From contig JAAUSE010000011.1 in NCBI GenBank assembly GCA_012031925.1, forward strand, positions 1-32,662: DNA of 32,662 nucleotides. The letters run 5' to 3'. Source of the DNA: Candidatus Altimarinota bacterium (GTDB lineage: Bacteria > Patescibacteriota > JACMRA01). Both the position numbers and the translations under genes were made by a program. This document shows positions 16,144 to 27,935 of this stretch, piece after piece (position 1 is the first letter of the stretch; each line of letters opens with the position of its first letter). The notes beneath the pieces are model-generated. The model was not told the DNA's origin, ran no database searches, and worked only from the letters and a program-made list of their open reading frames with translations.

Positions 16144-16872
16144 ATGAACATGGAGAAAAGAAATAGTTCTTTCAAAACAAGATCTAATTTAGCTAAAGTT
16201 GAAAATATTATCAGTTATGTATTTGAGGATAAAGAGTTGTTGCAAAAAGCCTTGATACACCGCTCATATCTAAATGAAAAAAGTCGAGATGATAGCCTGA
16301 CTAATCATAATGAGCGGTTAGAGTTTTTGGGGGATGCAGTCTTGGAGTTGATCGTTTCTGATTATTTGTACAAACAACTTGATGTTGATGAAGGGCAGAT
16401 GACCAAGCTGAGATCTTCTTTGGTCAAAGGTAAAATAAATGCCGAAATTGGGATCAAGCTTGGTTTGGATGGAGAAATTTTGCTAAGTAAAGGAGAGTTA
16501 GAGGATTTTGGCAAAGCTAGACCGTCAATTGTAGCTGATTGTGTGGAGGCTATTTTGGGGGCAATGTATTTGGATGGTGGTCTAAAATCATGCCTTAACT
16601 TCATTCAACAAAATATGTTAGTGTTACTTCCCCAAATAATTGATACCAAATCTTATGATGATTACAAAACGATTTTGCAAGAATATTGTCAAAAAACCAA
16701 AAAAATAACACCCAAATACAAAGTCATCAGTGAGACGGGCAAAGATCATAACAAAATCTATATATGTGGAGTTTGGATAGATAACAAACTATTCAGCCAA
16801 GGTACTGGTAGAACCAAACAAGAAGCTGAAACAGAAGCCGCCAAGATTGCTTATGAACAACTTAGTATTTAA
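16144..16872 (+). CDS. rnc: Ribonuclease III
   Basis: RNase III cuts double-stranded RNA in rRNA precursors and other structured transcripts, as a homodimer. The 242-residue product has the signature HNERLEFLGDAVLELIVSDY at about residues 55-74, with metal ligands E60 and D64, and the second acidic pair D132 and E135 in ADCVEAILGAMYLDGG. The double-stranded-RNA-binding domain occupies about 165-241 (YKTILQEYCQKT, then GTGRTKQEAETEAAKIAYEQL). Length and order are normal. ATG at 16144 or 16150 both fit; the promoter spacing favours 16144. Type V-A arrays are processed by Cas12a itself, so no link to the CRISPR locus is implied. Confidence 0.95.
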   Translation: MNMEKRNSSFKTRSNLAKVENIISYVFEDKELLQKALIHRSYLNEKSRDDSLTNHNERLEFLGDAVLELIVSDYLYKQLDVDEGQMTKLRSSLVKGKINAEIGIKLGLDGEILLSKGELEDFGKARPSIVADCVEAILGAMYLDGGLKSCLNFIQQNMLVLLPQIIDTKSYDDYKTILQEYCQKTKKITPKYKVISETGKDHNKIYICGVWIDNKLFSQGTGRTKQEAETEAAKIAYEQLSI

Positions 16873-21089: not shown

Positions 21090-23429
21090 TTACCTATTTA
21101 TTTTCTTGTTAAATTTAACTAGATTTCCTTCAAACCATTTATCAAAGTGATCTATACCTAATAGCCAATTATCCCAAATTTCTTCCGATATGTATGGTTC
21201 ATAACCTTTTTGAGACATGTAATTCATAATTATACCTTTACGAGCAATGTTATAAGCACCATTTGCATCACCACAAGTTGGTAGATCTACTTTTTCATTA
21301 TTTTTCTCTTTATCCCAATATTCTCTTGAATCAAAATAATTTCCGTTATTGTCCCTAATTGGTGAAAAAATAAAGTCTTGATCTCTTTCATTATTACCAA
21401 TATTTCTAATTTGTTGAATCAGATCGATTGCATATCTTAAAGAATCCCACTTACCCATATCTATAATAGCAGAAATTTCCTTACCTTCATCTACAATTTG
21501 AGAAAGCAAAGATCTATTTTTATCAAACTCTTTCTCGTTAAATACTTCATCTAATATACTTTTAACATTTATAGGTTTTATTTCCCATTTTCCATGATCA
21601 TTTTTTTTACCTCTAAATCTATCTAATGTTTTACCGTTTTTACCAGAATACAGCTTCCATATTTTATTAGTGTTACTATCTTTATACTCAAAACAGTAGT
21701 CTCCATCTTCCCAGGTTATATCTGTAAATTTTTCGATAATTTGATTTTTGACTTTTTCTTCACTACCTTTTTGAATGTAAACACTTTTTCGCCATCCAGT
21801 CACTGGATCAGTTACTGAAGTATAATTTGGTCGAGTGTATAACATTATACCTAGTTGCTTTTTGTTTTCTATATCTTGATAATTAGTTACTGGTGGAGTT
21901 AATTGTAGTGCTTGAGTTACAGAACCAACTCCTGATTCTACTTTTTTGTTTACATAAAAATTAAGTTTTTTGGCTAGTGCGAGTTCAAGTTTTTGATATA
22001 CTTGGTTTTCAATTTTGATCCTACTTCTTTTAAAACCTGTGTTTAAGTCTTCTAATACAATAAAAGTAAGTTTTGGATTATCTAGATTAACCGCATTTTT
22101 TATAATTTCTGTGATTACTTGTGAAACATAACCGTTTTTAAGATTTTTGATACTATCGATTGCCTGCCAGTTTTTACGAGCAAAATCACGATTACCTGCT
22201 CGAGCTTCAAGAAGATCATTATAATTCCAACACGTTACTGTTTCAATCTCAAAAGTGCCGTCGTCTTTGCTAATCATTATATTAGCATTTACTGAACATG
22301 GTTTTCCGTCTTTATCGACAAATGGTAGATTGAGACTACCTTGAGAGATAATTTCTCCTTTAGAATTAACCAGACAATAGTATGCAAGATGTTTCTCACC
22401 TCTATCAATTCCAAGATAATAAAGGTTTTCAGATTCGGATTCAAGATAGTTTAAAAAAATTTCATTTACCTTCTTTATAGCATTTCCATTTGGTCTTCCA
22501 TCTCTAACTCCTGAAATTTTTTTTGCATTAATTGTTATAGGAAAATGGAAGAAAAATTGTTTACCTTTACTGTCCTTTGTGCTTGAGTCAGTAAATCTTT
22601 TTCCCTTAATGACCCATGGTTTATTTTCATAACCTTTTTTAATATTTCTTTCTTTTAGACCAATTTTGCGGTAAAATATTTCTCCCTTACCATTCAACTT
22701 GTAAACTAAATTATTCAAGTTATTTTCTGAAAATAAGTTATTAAAATAAATTACTTGTAAATCTTTTCCTGTTTTTTTAATTGAATACAAATCTTTACTA
22801 TAAATCTCAAGCAAATATAAATTTCCTTCTTTTTGGATTTGTTCTAAATATTCTTTAGAAATATTTTCAAACCCAGTGTAGTACATAGTAAGATTTGCTA
22901 TATCTGCAGCTAATTCTTTAGCTAAATTATACTCTTTGTTTAATAATTCTTTAAGCTCAGGGAAAATTGTAATTTTATTTTGTAACATTTTTTTTACATT
23001 CTGTATCAAATCTTTTTGATTTACACTTTCGTTATCAAGGTATTTTTTATCAAACTCACCTTTGTAAGTTGATCCGTATATGGTTTTACCATCCAGTTGT
23101 TTATAAATCATTTTTTTCCATTCTGAGTTTTCAACAAAAGCATTTGGATGAAGCTGTTTGTCAAATATTTTAGGTTTGTTTGTAATTCCTAATAGATATT
23201 TTTCACCATTTTTCAATAAGAATGCTTTGTATTGGGTATTACCTTCAGGACTATCTGCCCAACCTTCAAGTAAACTTGAAGATTCAAAATTGAGCTTTAA
23301 CTTATTTTCTTTTACATCATCTTGTGGTTTTTTGGTAAGATAATTTCTTACTGCATCGTACCACTTGAACCAGTTTATTTCGTAATTTTCTAATATAGGT
23401 TCAAAGATAATATCTTTAAGTGCCTCCAC
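21090..23429 (-). CDS. cas12a: Cas12a (Cpf1), C-terminal part with RuvC and Nuc
   Basis: This frame (779 residues from GTG 23429) holds the WED-II/III, RuvC and Nuc regions of the RNA-guided DNA nuclease Cas12a. Seen: KLNFESSSLLEGW (about 44-57), LVYKLNGKGEIFYRK (241-255), the crRNA-processing region IKGKRFT and KQFFFHFPITIN (274-301), RuvC-I YLGIDRGEKHLAYY with D342, the bridge-helix tryptophan W421 in ARKNW, RuvC-II FIVLEDLNTGFKRSR with E460, the Nuc-region arginine near R675 and RuvC-III GDANGAYNIARKG with D721. All three RuvC acidic residues are present. The GTG is probably not a true start; the open frame extends to about 23457 as NGGTLDPIIVEALKDIIF. Confidence 0.92.
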   Translation of the reverse strand: MEALKDIIFEPILENYEINWFKWYDAVRNYLTKKPQDDVKENKLKLNFESSSLLEGWADSPEGNTQYKAFLLKNGEKYLLGITNKPKIFDKQLHPNAFVENSEWKKMIYKQLDGKTIYGSTYKGEFDKKYLDNESVNQKDLIQNVKKMLQNKITIFPELKELLNKEYNLAKELAADIANLTMYYTGFENISKEYLEQIQKEGNLYLLEIYSKDLYSIKKTGKDLQVIYFNNLFSENNLNNLVYKLNGKGEIFYRKIGLKERNIKKGYENKPWVIKGKRFTDSSTKDSKGKQFFFHFPITINAKKISGVRDGRPNGNAIKKVNEIFLNYLESESENLYYLGIDRGEKHLAYYCLVNSKGEIISQGSLNLPFVDKDGKPCSVNANIMISKDDGTFEIETVTCWNYNDLLEARAGNRDFARKNWQAIDSIKNLKNGYVSQVITEIIKNAVNLDNPKLTFIVLEDLNTGFKRSRIKIENQVYQKLELALAKKLNFYVNKKVESGVGSVTQALQLTPPVTNYQDIENKKQLGIMLYTRPNYTSVTDPVTGWRKSVYIQKGSEEKVKNQIIEKFTDITWEDGDYCFEYKDSNTNKIWKLYSGKNGKTLDRFRGKKNDHGKWEIKPINVKSILDEVFNEKEFDKNRSLLSQIVDEGKEISAIIDMGKWDSLRYAIDLIQQIRNIGNNERDQDFIFSPIRDNNGNYFDSREYWDKEKNNEKVDLPTCGDANGAYNIARKGIIMNYMSQKGYEPYISEEIWDNWLLGIDHFDKWFEGNLVKFNKKINR

Positions 23430-23431
23430 AA

Positions 23432-25144
23432 TTATCGGATCAAGAGTTCCACCATTTTAATTTTACTTTCATTTACAGAGAAATATTGAATTATTGATAA
23501 TACTTTTTTTATACTATCTAAGTATGCTTTTATTTTATCTTTATTATCTTGATTTTTATAATCTGTTATCTTTACCAAACCATCACCTGTTTTTTTGAGT
23601 TGATCTAATTCTTTTTTTATATCTTCAACTATAAATCTTAGTAATGTTTGCGATGCTGAATATTCAGTATTTTCAAATATTATTTGCTTAGCTTCATCTT
23701 CATAGGCTTTTACTTTAAATAATCCTACCTCTCTCCAGTTCTCAACACTATCCAAAACTTCAAAAAGTCCTGTGAGTGGTATTGCCTCAGGTATAATCAC
23801 TTTATAATTTTCTTTTTTTGATCCTCTACCAAAAACCTTAGATTTTTGACATAATTCTTGAACATGAAACCAATTTCCAATATATAAGTTAGAAATTGTA
23901 TTCATCACTTTTTTTGACCAATATAATCCTTCATAATCTTCTTTTTGTAGAATATAATTGATAAAATCATTAACATTACAAATTTCTCCATCACCTGATT
24001 GATCTGCAGTAATTAACTTTTCTACTCCTTTTTTAGTGTTTAAAAGTAGTTCTTGCAGTGAATATGGTTTTGAGAAGTTTTCTTTGTTTTGCTGTGATTG
24101 TTCTTTTGAATCATGTGTTATAGCAAAAAATAATGCATCTTTTTTTCCACACCCAATTTGCTTATAAAGAGTTTTAAATTGAGGCAAACTTTGAAATTTA
24201 TCTTCATCCTTTAGTTCTTTATAATCTTGCTTTTTATGTTGATTGTATAAGTTAATCAAGTAATTATAATCCCCGATTATTCCATTATATTTTTCAATAT
24301 CAGATTGAGATAGATATTTTCTATAGTTATTAATTTCAAAAAAACTTTCATCAATTGCTTTCAACAAAGTTGGATCAATTTCTTTAGATTTTACATATTC
24401 ATAAATTCCAAGATATTCTAGTTTTGTTTCTCTAATGATCTCAGTAACTTTTTTAGTGACTTTATTTTTTTTTCTTTTGATTATTTTTTCAAATTGTTTA
24501 AGATTATCACAATACTTTGGTAGATTATCATGTACAATTCTTGTGGCTATAGCAGTTGCTTTTTCATCTTTGGTAGTGTAATAGTTTTCTCTATTTTGAT
24601 TATAACCAGCTAAGTAACCATAAAAGCTGTATATCTTGCCTACTGCATTATTGACTTCATTAGAAATATTTTTGTCTTTCACTAATTTGACCATATCTTT
24701 TGTGAGTAATATATTAAAGCTTTTTGCAACTGCTGATCCCTTTTTAAAAACATATTTATTTTTATATTTTGTCTTCCAAATTTCACTAGTCTTAATAAAC
24801 AAACTATCAATTTGACTTCTTAAATTTTTTTCAAATTCTTTTAAATCACGATTATCAGACTTTTTGTACTCATTAAAATAACTTTCAAAATCTATATCGC
24901 TATCTTCATTCAGTGTTAAGGCTTCGTTAATAAATTCTTCGTGTATTTTATCTAGTTCGGGCTTTATTAGATTATAAGCATCTTCGATTTCTTGATCTTT
25001 AAGAAAAGTTTGCAAATCAATATCATATCCAAGATTGTTTTTCATATTTTCCAAAGTCTTTCCAACTGGTTTAAGCTCAAATCGTAACGTTTTGGTAAGT
25101 GAATAAAGGTTAGTGAACTTTGAGAATATTGATTGATCTGACAT
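23432..25144 (-). CDS. cas12a: Cas12a (Cpf1), N-terminal part with WED-I, REC lobe
   Basis: The first 570 residues begin with the Cas12a signature NLYSLTKTLRFELKPVGKTLEN (WED-I). They continue through REC1, including YLAGYNQNRENYY and TAIATRIVHDNLPKYCDN at about 175-215 (family YFTGFxxNRxNxY, AIAxRIVxENLP), and REC2. The frame ends KIKMVELLIR at 23432. Adding one A to the A4 run (23455-23458) gives KIKNGGTLDPIIVEAL and a single protein of about 1,350 residues, normal for Cas12a. The ATG at 25144 has AGGAG 4 bases before it. A promoter TTGACA-N17-TAATAG ends 6 bases before the ATG. It is divergent from cas4, unlike the usual same-strand order. Confidence 0.92.
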   Translation of the reverse strand: MSDQSIFSKFTNLYSLTKTLRFELKPVGKTLENMKNNLGYDIDLQTFLKDQEIEDAYNLIKPELDKIHEEFINEALTLNEDSDIDFESYFNEYKKSDNRDLKEFEKNLRSQIDSLFIKTSEIWKTKYKNKYVFKKGSAVAKSFNILLTKDMVKLVKDKNISNEVNNAVGKIYSFYGYLAGYNQNRENYYTTKDEKATAIATRIVHDNLPKYCDNLKQFEKIIKRKKNKVTKKVTEIIRETKLEYLGIYEYVKSKEIDPTLLKAIDESFFEINNYRKYLSQSDIEKYNGIIGDYNYLINLYNQHKKQDYKELKDEDKFQSLPQFKTLYKQIGCGKKDALFFAITHDSKEQSQQNKENFSKPYSLQELLLNTKKGVEKLITADQSGDGEICNVNDFINYILQKEDYEGLYWSKKVMNTISNLYIGNWFHVQELCQKSKVFGRGSKKENYKVIIPEAIPLTGLFEVLDSVENWREVGLFKVKAYEDEAKQIIFENTEYSASQTLLRFIVEDIKKELDQLKKTGDGLVKITDYKNQDNKDKIKAYLDSIKKVLSIIQYFSVNESKIKMVELLIR

Positions 25145-25239: not shown

Positions 25240-25785
25240 ATGGAACAATACATCCCCGCTTCCTTGCTTAATGACTTTATCTACTCACCAGAGTCTATTT
25301 ATCTCCACTCTATATACAGCGACTTTGACAAATCAATTTATCAAGACCTCCCCCAGATAAACGGCACCCTCAACCACCAATCAATTGATCAAGCTACATA
25401 CACAACAGTCAAAAACACCCTCCAAGGTGTTATGTTTTTTTGTGAGCAATACAACCTTTGCGGACGAATTGATTTGTATAATACCAAGACAGGAGTACTT
25501 ACAGAACGCAAATCCCTCATCAAACATATACACATTGGCTATAGATACCAACTATATGCAGAGATGTTTGGACTCCTAGAACTCGGCTATAAAGTCAATA
25601 AACTCCAGCTCCACTCACTCCAAGACAACAAAAAATACCCCATTCCCTTACCCAACCAGCAACGAATCCAAGAGTTTACCTCCACCATCCAAGACCTCCA
25701 AAACTTTGACCCAATATCAATACTCCAAAATAACCACACCTCACCCAATACCAACATCTCTATCTATCAAAACCTCTCTTTCTAA
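25240..25785 (+). CDS. cas4: Cas4 nuclease without its iron-sulfur cysteines
   Basis: Cas4 trims and selects prespacers with the right PAM and works with Cas1-Cas2. This 181-residue protein has the RecB-type nuclease motifs: H46, D78 in CGRIDLY, E89 and K91 in TERKS and the QLY motif at 104-106 (YRYQLYAEMFGL). The four cysteines that normally bind a 4Fe-4S cluster are absent. The N-terminal FIYCP becomes FIYSPES (S16), and the C-terminal CxxC...C block is replaced by NTNISIYQNLS, with serine or asparagine at the expected places. The only cysteines (C68, C74) are elsewhere. Codons end in C far more often than in cas12a. It leads the cas4-cas1-cas2 operon. Confidence 0.85.
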   Translation: MEQYIPASLLNDFIYSPESIYLHSIYSDFDKSIYQDLPQINGTLNHQSIDQATYTTVKNTLQGVMFFCEQYNLCGRIDLYNTKTGVLTERKSLIKHIHIGYRYQLYAEMFGLLELGYKVNKLQLHSLQDNKKYPIPLPNQQRIQEFTSTIQDLQNFDPISILQNNHTSPNTNISIYQNLSF

Positions 25786-25803: not shown

Positions 25804-26775
25804 ATGCTATCCAAACCAGACTTTATCCAAAAACAAATCCTCATCATCCACCAAGAAAAAGACATCCAACTAGACTTCAAGTTTTCCAACGATAACATCA
25901 TCATCTACAAAAACTCCAAAATCGCCAACAAAATCTCACTCCACAAAATCTTTGTTATATTTATAATTGGTTCATTTACCATCACCTCCAACCTCATCGC
26001 CCAAGCCAATACTCACTGTATCAATATTTTCCTACTCAAAGAAAATTTTCAAGTCCAATCCCAGATACAATCCTACGCTTCAGGCAACTTTCTACTCAGA
26101 TATCAACAATACCATCACACAACCCACCACGAGCTTTTTATATCCCAATGTATAGTCCTCAACAAAATCACCAACCAAATCCATATCCTCCAAAAATACA
26201 ATCATATTGACTCCAAAAAAGCCAGAGCCCTACTCACAAAAACCACCAACTCCATCAACCATACTATCGACTACAAAGAGCTTCTAGGCATAGAAGGAAC
26301 CTTTGCCAAAACCTACTTTTCTGCTCTTTTCGACCAACACGAATGGACAGGTCGCAAGCCAAGAGCCAAGAACGACATCAACAACCTTCTACTAGATATT
26401 GGCTATACATATATACTCAATTTTATTGACTCTCTTCTCCTCCTTTATGGTTTTGATACTTACAAAGGTGTTTATCACAAACTATTTTTTCAACGCAAAT
26501 CCCTCAGCTGCGATATCATAGAACCTTTTCGGCCGATGATTGATTATTATCTTATCAAAGCTCACAACCTCAATCAAATTAACCCCAAAGACTTCCAACT
26601 AAAATCCCCCACCTACTCACTTCCTTGGAAAAACAGCCGCAAGTACACCACTATTTTCTTTGATGGAATCATGCAAAACAAAGAATCCATTTATGATTAT
26701 GTCCAAAAATACTATAGATTTAACATGAACCCCACTGATAATCCCATGCCCCAGTTTATTTTCAAACCTAGATAA
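25804..26775 (+). CDS. cas1: Cas1 integrase
   Basis: Cas1 joins new spacers to the leader end of the array as part of the Cas1-Cas2 complex. The 323-residue product has the catalytic glutamate E164 in LLGIEGTFAKTYF, the histidine H225 in GVYHKLFFQRKSLSCDIIEPFRP and the acidic residues D237/E240 of the same motif. The N-terminal beta domain (residues 1-75) is followed by the helical catalytic domain. Length is normal. It starts 18 bases after cas4 and ends 9 bases before cas2. Leucine and isoleucine codons CTC and ATC dominate, giving the coding strand a strong C-over-G bias not seen in the flanking genes, which suggests a separate origin. Confidence 0.95.
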   Translation: MLSKPDFIQKQILIIHQEKDIQLDFKFSNDNIIIYKNSKIANKISLHKIFVIFIIGSFTITSNLIAQANTHCINIFLLKENFQVQSQIQSYASGNFLLRYQQYHHTTHHELFISQCIVLNKITNQIHILQKYNHIDSKKARALLTKTTNSINHTIDYKELLGIEGTFAKTYFSALFDQHEWTGRKPRAKNDINNLLLDIGYTYILNFIDSLLLLYGFDTYKGVYHKLFFQRKSLSCDIIEPFRPMIDYYLIKAHNLNQINPKDFQLKSPTYSLPWKNSRKYTTIFFDGIMQNKESIYDYVQKYYRFNMNPTDNPMPQFIFKPR

Positions 26776-26784
26776 TTCTCTTTT

Positions 26785-27066
26785 ATGCTCATAGTAACTT
26801 ACGATTTTAGCAACAACAAAATCCGCACCAAGTTCCACAAATTTCTCAAAAAATATGGTCACCCACTACAATACTCCGTTTTTGAAATCAAAAATAGTCC
26901 ACGCATCCTCAATATTATCATGCTTGAGATAGAAAAAGTATACAAACCCAAATTTACTCTAGCCGATTCGATACTAATTATACCTATTTCCCTTGCTGAC
27001 ACTCACAAAATTCGCCGATATGGGTACAGTGTCCAAGAAGAAAAAGAATTGATTTGGTTTGACTAA
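26785..27066 (+). CDS. cas2: Cas2 adaptation protein
   Basis: Cas2 forms the central dimer of the spacer-integration complex. The 93-residue product has the ferredoxin-like fold of the family: first strand MLIVTYDFSNNKIRTKFHKF with the conserved D, then LQYSVFEIKNSPRI, then SILIIPISLADTHKI, followed by a short C-terminal strand. ATG 26785 is 9 bases after cas1, in the same operon and with similar codon use. The array leader begins directly behind it. No nuclease or fused domain is present. Confidence 0.93.
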   Translation: MLIVTYDFSNNKIRTKFHKFLKKYGHPLQYSVFEIKNSPRILNIIMLEIEKVYKPKFTLADSILIIPISLADTHKIRRYGYSVQEEKELIWFD

Positions 27067-27197
27067 AATAAATATTTTGAATATACTCTTTCTATTGAAT
27101 CTTATCAATTATTTTACAGCTTAATTATTACCAATAAAGGTGAAAATTATGATGCTCATTTTGTAAAACCTTAGTCTTAATATTTTTGACTATGCAA

Positions 27198-27256
27198 ATA
27201 TATGCTATTTAGTCGTGAAACTAACTTTGTTTCATTTGTATCTAAATAGCATATAT
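27198..27256. repeat. Perfect 15-bp inverted repeat with inner stem in the CRISPR leader
   Basis: ATATATGCTATTTAG (27198-27212) is exactly complementary to CTAAATAGCATATAT (27242-27256). Inside the loop TGAAAC (27216-27221) pairs with GTTTCA (27229-27234). The right arm occupies most of the spacer between the -35 and -10 boxes of the array promoter. It may be an operator, a transcribed hairpin, or a docking site for the integration machinery. Confidence 0.85.
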
Positions 27257-27265
27257 ATCTATAAT
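27236..27265 (+). promoter_or_regulatory. Pre-crRNA promoter
   Basis: TTGTAT (27236-27241), 18 bases, TATAAT (27260-27265). The start of transcription would fall at about 27271-27273, the first base of the first repeat, so no leader RNA would be wasted. Confidence 0.6.
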
Positions 27266-27270
27266 CAACT

Positions 27271-27935
27271 GTCTAAAATGATTATTTAATTTCTACTTTT
27301 GTAGATAATGCTCTTAATACTTCTGCAAGTAGGTCTAAAATGATTATTTAATTTCTACTTTTGTAGATAGAAGAATTTTCTGTTTTTGTGTTTGCGTCTA
27401 AAATGATTATTTAATTTCTACTTTTGTAGATCATTCTCAGAACGGTACAGCCACAGGGTCTAAAATGATTATTTAATTTCTACTTTTGTAGATGTGTATG
27501 TAAACATATTATAGATTGTTAGGTCTAAAATGATTATTTAATTTCTACTTTTGTAGATACTGGGCGTAATACCTATAACCTCAAGTCTAAAATGATTATT
27601 TAATTTCTACTTTTGTAGATTCTACTGGTGATACGACAAGTGGCTCGTCTAAAATGATTATTTAATTTCTACTTTTGTAGATGTTTGGTGGTTGTGAGTG
27701 GTCTTTTTGTGTCTAAAATGATTATTTAATTTCTACTTTTGTAGATGTTAGCTTCTTACCGTCAATGTTCTTGTCTAAAATGATTATTTAATTTCTACTT
27801 TTGTAGATAAAGCTGTTTCTTTGCTTTTATAAAAGTCTAAAATGATTATTTAATTTCTACTTTTGTAGATGCTCATATCTATTAGCCTATTAATAACAAG
27901 TCTAAAATGATTATTTAATTTCTACTTTTGTATTA
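27271..27935 (+). CRISPR. Type V-A CRISPR array: 11 repeats, 10 spacers
   Basis: The 36-base repeat begins GTCTAAAATGATTATT and ends AATTTCTACTTTTGTAGAT, the standard Cas12a crRNA handle (stem TCTAC/GTAGA, loop TTTT). Repeats start at 27271, 27333, 27396, 27458, 27523, 27585, 27647, 27711, 27773, 27835 and 27900. Repeats 1-10 appear identical. The last matches through base 33 (27932) and ends TTA in place of GAT. Spacers are 26, 27, 26, 29, 26, 26, 28, 26, 26 and 29 bases, and all differ. I found no spacer matching elsewhere in the window. The orientation is confirmed by the handle: crRNAs read from the plus strand. Confidence 0.98.

Follow-up and report, generated by a model that had tools for sequence, protein, structure and literature searches.

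A conserved leader RNA in front of CPR type V-A CRISPR arrays that may take over pre-crRNA cleavage from Cas12a

A large inverted repeat lies just upstream of the type V-A CRISPR array in the window, the whole stretch of 32,662 nucleotides analyzed here. Comparison with related leaders indicates that this repeat is the stem, P3, of a conserved leader RNA predicted to precede V-A arrays throughout the Candidate Phyla Radiation (CPR). The larger part of this RNA, an anti-repeat upstream of P3, was lacking from the initial annotation of the window. Judged from sequence, the CPR Cas12a proteins have lost their pre-crRNA RNase active site, and we hold, with moderate confidence at best, that the structured leader RNA most likely replaces Cas12a's own pre-crRNA cleavage, probably by way of RNase III. 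In the whole CPR branch, including the PeCas12a lineage, the RNase site is gone and a repeat-matching leader RNA is present instead, which suggests a guide-making route in these bacteria that differs from any described for Cas12a.

The CRISPR Locus and Its Relatives

The genome holding the window measures 1.07 Mb, and its Cas1 relatives are mostly from CPR bacteria. The locus contains Cas12a, cas4-cas1-cas2 and repeats of the TCTAC-N-GTAGAT form, as expected for type V-A, in the order cas12a (minus strand), cas4, cas1, cas2, leader and array (Table 1). Relatives were collected by a Cas1 profile scan of species genomes, which gave 62 loci with CPR in the majority; the non-CPR loci came from Moraxella, Campylobacterota, Leptospirales, Spirochaetia, Bdellovibrionales, Chryseobacterium and Clostridia. 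A readable leader between cas2 and a V-A array was available for 57 loci, the window counted.

Table 1. Positions of the genes and leader elements in the window
Feature	Coordinates	Strand	Remarks
rnc, ribonuclease III	16144..16872	+	single copy found in genome; putative host nuclease acting on the anti-repeat:repeat duplex
cas12a	21090..25144	-	two pieces, frameshift near 23432-23456; WED segment KIGLKERNIKKGYENKPWVIKGKRF without canonical pre-crRNA RNase His/Lys
cas4 (type V, PREFRAN)	25240..25785	+	TIGR04328
cas1	25804..26775	+	Pfam PF01867
cas2	26785..27066	+	Pfam PF09827
anti-repeat AAAGGTGAAAATTATGATGCTCATTTTGT	27136..27164	+	complementary to 5' ~29 nt of own array's repeat
leader core motif AAACCTTAGTCTTAAT	27166..27181	+	~105 nt upstream of repeat 1; conserved in CPR and non-CPR V-A leaders
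small hairpin P2	27172..27192	+	UAGUC 27172-27176 / GACUA 27188-27192; supported in about half of relatives
hairpin P3	27198..27256	+	outer stem (the inverted repeat), internal loop, inner stem
type V-A CRISPR array	27271..27932	+	11 repeats, final one 3'-degenerate
repeat 1	27271..27306	+	predicted anti-repeat partner; Cas12a handle AATTTCTACTTTTGTAGAT from repeat nt 18

The two halves of the window cas12a occupy different reading frames and therefore reflect a frameshift and not the alternative genetic code 25, which was rejected as the cause of the split. The frameshift is either an assembly error or a mutation, and this copy may therefore be inactive or misassembled. Among the relatives, cas12a is interrupted by a single in-frame stop in L051 and L062 and is in pieces in L086. 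The last repeat of the window array (27897-27932) ends in GTATTA in place of GTAGAT; degenerate final repeats in other V-A arrays have been described as a means of preventing extraneous crRNA.

A Conserved Hairpin at the Inverted Repeat

The perfect 15-bp inverted repeat reported in the initial annotation was confirmed. Its arms, ATATATGCTATTTAG (27198-27212) and CTAAATAGCATATAT (27242-27256), pair without a mismatch, and no other perfect inverted repeat of at least 12 bp (loop 3-40) exists within the 32.7-kb window; in dinucleotide-shuffled windows (n = 12) the longest measured 13 bp. With mismatches allowed, the arms extend to 27186-27212 and 27242-27268 (85% paired). The second stem described inside the repeat was also recovered and spans 7 bp counting the G.U, with GUGAAAC (27215-27221) opposite GUUUCAU (27229-27235); an internal loop consisting of UC (27213-27214) and UUGUAU (27236-27241) lies between the two stems. 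The stretch folds much better than its shuffles (z of -4.7 as DNA and -5.4 as RNA).

The initial annotation had proposed covariation of the arms in relatives as a check, and compensating arm changes were indeed found in 28 loci. CPR leaders have a hairpin at the corresponding place, with arms that vary by species yet pair. In the alignment of P3 from these loci, 77.2% of cells were paired, compared to 58.9 ± 1.4 after shuffling, and two-sided changes numbered 122, compared to 46 ± 5.5. The covariation score was 0.481, whereas shuffled alignments gave 0.175 ± 0.018 and slid partners at most 0.24. We also performed an alignment-free count with 28 loci anchored on the internal loop. Here, inner-stem position 2 was paired in all 28 loci with four pair types (UA, GC, CG, UG), and position 3 in 26 of the 28, against a permuted maximum of 19. 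G.U exceeded A.C by 35:1 in the inner stem in the same count, from which we conclude that the P3 inner stem functions as RNA transcribed from the array strand. For the outer stem, the G.U:A.C ratio was 18:20, showing no RNA polarity. The internal loop, GUC/UUGYAUC, is near-invariant across loci, and the 3' end of P3 always lies ~12 nt upstream of repeat 1.

A covariance model built from P3 (R1) matched just 5' of CPR V-A arrays, including loci that were not used for training (G120, 2.3e-9; L106, 8.5e-10; L068, 4e-8), and gave no convincing match outside CPR V-A arrays. Matches outside V-A leaders in 192 CPR genomes were weak (E of 1e-3 to 1e-2 per genome) and were judged to be noise. P3 is absent from non-CPR V-A leaders with cas1-cas2, and no second copy of the leader was found in the window's genome. 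The sole Cas1 relative on viral contigs (L108) has repeats without the V-A handle, and its R1 match was not convincing.

An Anti-repeat That Follows the Repeat of Its Own Array

Upstream of P3, at a distance of ~35 nt in the window and at the corresponding place in other CPR leaders, lies an anti-repeat of 27-29 nt that pairs with repeat nt 2-32 and leaves a gap at nt 16-17. The own-repeat score summed to 1074, compared to 811 ± 20 for permuted repeats with a maximum of 902 in 20,000 reassignments among loci. Restricting the score to repeat nt 1-18, outside the universal handle, gave 700 compared to 572 ± 15 (maximum 633). The leader base opposite the fixed repeat U20 and U24 is exclusively A or G and that opposite A19 exclusively U, as expected for pairing in RNA. 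Over repeat nt 5-30 the paired fraction is high, with a main gap at nt 16-17 (0.49 and 0.54) and a lesser gap at nt 23 (0.63); the main gap directly precedes the handle, which starts at nt 18, and is the canonical Cas12a cut site. When leader and repeat 1 were folded together, a comparison that covered most loci, 20-27 of 29 repeat nt were paired in most CPR loci, compared to ~4.5 with shuffled leaders.

Pairing in the window is weaker than the average among loci. RNAduplex gave -13.6 kcal/mol (z -2.7) for the anti-repeat with its own repeat, which beat each of 56 other repeats; in a neutral alignment, 3 of the 56 scored at least as well as the own repeat. A fold begun at the anti-repeat paired 22 of 29 nt of repeat 1 with it, whereas the pairing was lost in a fold from cas2 onwards, which places the window among the weaker cases.

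No anti-repeat was found in the leaders of Moraxella, Campylobacterota and Leptospirales. Short anti-repeats, which cover repeat nt ~1-16 and spare the handle, occur in the non-CPR leaders L081, L099, L100 and G661 (L142), the first three of which belong to loci with an RNase-bearing Cas12a. The core motif AAACCTNAGTCTTNAT was seen in almost every V-A locus, about 104-154 nt upstream of repeat 1, including non-CPR loci without P3 or a long anti-repeat (L087-L107, G661, G1055 and G999). P2 was dropped as a firmly conserved hairpin, its median z being only -1.4.

Loss of the RNase Site in CPR Cas12a

In FnCas12a, pre-crRNA is processed by H843, K852 and K869 (PMC11127173), and the processing element of Cas12a is a loop of the wedge domain (PMC9522604). 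The segment that bears H843 and K852 is missing in all 40 readable CPR Cas12a proteins, including that of the window, and the segment length has a median of 20 aa in CPR compared to 35. The Fn K869 column holds K in 16 of 40 CPR proteins, compared to 16 of 17 from outside CPR. The window protein has a K in this column and departs from the full Fn set of residues in its missing H843/K852 segment. All 17 non-CPR proteins have a His in the segment, and the long anti-repeat is absent from their leaders; in Campylobacterota and L095 this His sits in a GHH variant of putative activity. An independent RuvC-profile search of 380 CPR genomes found nine with Cas12a, and all of these with a readable segment lack the His; one of them (G202) has the leader RNA too. 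Non-CPR Cas12a proteins found with the same approach kept the His wherever it was readable.

Two leptospiral Cas12a proteins are nested inside the RNase-less clade of the window's Cas12a (support 1.0). They possess the His segment, and their leaders have neither the anti-repeat nor P3. Together with the contrast between CPR and non-CPR loci, this makes leader RNA and RNase site mutually exclusive at two places in the tree. As RNase-site loss and RNA gain each occurred on few branches, the association amounts to about two independent contrasts. The wedge stretch of these two proteins (L095 and L096) appears mosaic, with that of L095 lying nearer to non-CPR Cas12a, a pattern that reacquisition of the RNase segment through recombination would produce.

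PeCas12a (L068) has no His segment either. In the 2015 work of Zetsche it was reportedly active with crRNA alone, and the leader RNA therefore need not belong to the effector.

Leaders without Adaptation Genes

Two loci (G113 and G008) retain cas12a, array, anti-repeat and P3 without cas4-cas1-cas2, of which just an ORF similar to a cas2 tail is left, and the ~100% complete genome of G113 contains no cas1 anywhere. The leader RNA being kept without these genes, the element should serve expression or interference and not adaptation. The inverted repeat had also been proposed as a landing site for Cas1-Cas2. This is unlikely given its retention in the two loci and its absence from non-CPR V-A loci with cas1-cas2, and because ~3 bp of leader suffices for the V-A Cas1-Cas2 of F. 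novicida in vitro (PMC13034035). Directly upstream of the leader in L042 and L044 we observed an ORF of ~40 aa that looks like the C-terminal end of Cas2 (CxxC...YGxA.xED); two unrelated CPR genomes have thus kept it after losing cas4-cas1-cas2. A gene for RNase III was found in the window's genome and in each of 9 other V-A CPR genomes.

Transcription Signals around the Leader

The inverted repeat had initially been read as overlapping the array promoter, with its right arm as the spacer and transcription starting at the first base of repeat 1. The TATAAT on which this reading relied is present at 27260-27265, but its promoter role did not hold: neither a -35 partner nor a promoter was scored at that place, and TATAAT is absent from the equivalent position in all relatives, where the nucleotides before repeat 1 usually resemble CCATTTCCGCT. 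Moreover, were transcription to start at repeat 1, P3 would be missing from the transcript, although the G.U bias of its inner stem implies that it acts as RNA.

No conserved promoter was found at a fixed distance before the anti-repeat across leaders. A sigma-70 promoter at such a distance was rejected, with only a variable TTTGACAA-like motif found. In CPR leaders, a TTTGACAA- or CTTTAACAA-like motif recurs at variable distance ~13-32 nt upstream of the anti-repeat, and its spacing misfits sigma-70 relative to any -10 box. No terminator was scored between leader and array, and the inverted repeat was accordingly rejected as a terminator. With no terminator in between and no conserved promoter, each pre-crRNA should contain one anti-repeat, and action in cis on repeat 1 fits this better than action in trans on all repeats.

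A Possible Route to crRNA Maturation

As CPR Cas12a lacks the RNase active site, the leader RNA most likely substitutes for that cut. The RNA would be transcribed from the array strand and comprise, from its 5' end, the anti-repeat, the core motif, P2 and P3, ending at repeat 1. Its anti-repeat would pair with ~28 nt of the CRISPR repeat, in cis with repeat 1 and possibly in trans with others, and the duplex would have an internal loop at repeat nt 16-17, the position at which other Cas12a proteins cut. A host double-strand RNase, probably RNase III, would then cut the duplex and release the mature handle, as happens with tracrRNA in type II, while P3 would recruit or protect. The structure of the RNA, its strand and its tracking of the repeat are read from the comparison of loci, as are the missing RNase site and the co-distribution of the two; we infer from these that the RNA is produced, takes part in crRNA maturation with RNase III as the nuclease, and has a partner that binds P3. 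More tentatively, we propose that a widespread CPR branch of type V-A dropped self-processing by Cas12a and came to rely on a tracr-like RNA encoded in the leader, together with host RNase III, for crRNA maturation, P3 binding a partner; in this branch the tracr-like RNA may have evolved out of the leader of the array itself. Having one copy per transcript favors action in cis, and the analogy with tracrRNA would favor trans. Observations that speak against tracr-like maturation include the short anti-repeats in non-CPR loci with an RNase-bearing Cas12a, the lack of RNA polarity in the outer stem of P3, and the below-average pairing in the window itself.

If the proposed mechanism holds, it illustrates how a tracrRNA can originate from a leader, P3 would be an RNA hairpin with a binding partner, and CPR Cas12a variants would not be expected to split guide arrays unaided, which is relevant to engineering.

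Comparison with Known Systems

Cas12a is regarded as an effector that can do without a tracrRNA because it cuts guides by itself. According to a survey of V-A effectors, no tracrRNA was reliably predictable (PMC7757703), a study of CPR Cas12a mentions none (PMC6509639), and for V-A none is named in the V-A and tracrRNA passages of the 2025 classification (PMC12669027). The initial statement that no such element had been described for V-A leaders agrees with our searches: none was found in the searchable literature, and no Rfam family matches the leader RNA at gathering score, although literature coverage was partial and an earlier mention of a V-A leader RNA may exist.

The CPR leader RNA resembles the tracrRNAs of type II and of V-B and V-E in several respects. 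Its anti-repeat is complementary to the repeat of its own array, covaries with it and is followed by hairpins, the effector apparently does not cut its own pre-crRNA, and RNase III is at hand. Unlike a tracrRNA, it lies inside the leader of the array, with one copy per pre-crRNA and no terminator of its own seen; the effector is a Cas12a with the usual V-A handle, and the role of the leader RNA is putative. The scoutRNAs of V-C and V-D are likewise small RNAs that lie next to a type V array and are complementary to the repeat, but their complementarity is short and their effectors are Cas12c and Cas12d, in contrast to 27-29 nt and Cas12a here. Canonical V-A loci (F. novicida, Moraxella, Lachnospiraceae) share Cas12a, cas4-cas1-cas2, the repeat handle and, in the non-CPR loci examined, the core motif; they differ in that Cas12a with H843, K852 and K869 cuts its own pre-crRNA, and the non-CPR leaders examined contain neither P3 nor a long anti-repeat.

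Alternative Readings of the Leader RNA

The RNA could instead be a cis-acting leader-repeat hairpin like those of II-A and VI-B, which sequesters repeat 1 and tunes or delays the crRNA of the newest spacer with no role in maturation. These hairpins also arise from a transcribed leader, which base-pairs with the first repeat and so masks it from the effector, and the CPR leader RNA, present once per transcript, is predicted to fold its anti-repeat onto repeat 1 in the same way. The precedents are found in systems whose first repeat gives rise to an extraneous crRNA, which they serve to block (Liao 2022; Migur 2026, PMC13187072). These systems have guide-repeat order, whereas V-A has repeat-guide order and its extraneous crRNA comes from the last repeat; VI-A, with the same order as V-A, shows no such hairpin (PMC13187072). 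As the hairpins are tied to a useless first-repeat crRNA and are missing in VI-A, the explanation given for II-A and VI-B is not transferable to V-A. The CPR leader moreover adds the conserved, covarying core P3, which is absent from the descriptions of those hairpins, and a cis hairpin leaves unexplained both the match with RNase-site loss and the internal loop at the cut site. We therefore regard it as unlikely, if still a serious contender.

A relocated RNase site, by which the RNase-less Cas12a would still mature its own crRNA and the leader RNA would have another role, appears to us distinctly improbable. A His occupies or adjoins the Fn K869 position in about a quarter of the CPR proteins (NHKRY, DHKRY, HKKRY), but no residue there is conserved throughout the clade, and the K869 column is relaxed.

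We give somewhat less weight still to a regulatory leader RNA, in which the P3 loop would control array transcription or the pre-crRNA level through antitermination or protein binding and the anti-repeat would act as a feedback sensor of free repeats. The near-invariant internal loop is what a binding site would look like, and the constant distance of P3 from repeat 1 also agrees with this reading, yet such an RNA would not by itself require ~28 nt of repeat-tracking complementarity, extending to the 5' half that the mature crRNA does not retain.

A DNA element overlapping the array promoter, be it an operator, a cruciform or a Cas1-Cas2 docking site, is very improbable: the perfect 15-bp arms, the TATAAT at 27260 and the lack of strand bias in outer-stem substitutions would suit it, but they are opposed by the 35:1 inner-stem ratio, the A/G-only rule opposite repeat U, the promoter that is not conserved, and the distribution of the element with respect to cas1-cas2, being retained where these genes are gone and missing from non-CPR V-A loci that have them.

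An Additional Locus with a PREFRAN-type Cas1

Genome G000 contains a second locus (G000:C34, L040, 7747-11940), in which a PREFRAN-type Cas1 neighbors a divergent Cas12e/CasX-like effector that is fragmented over two or three ORFs.
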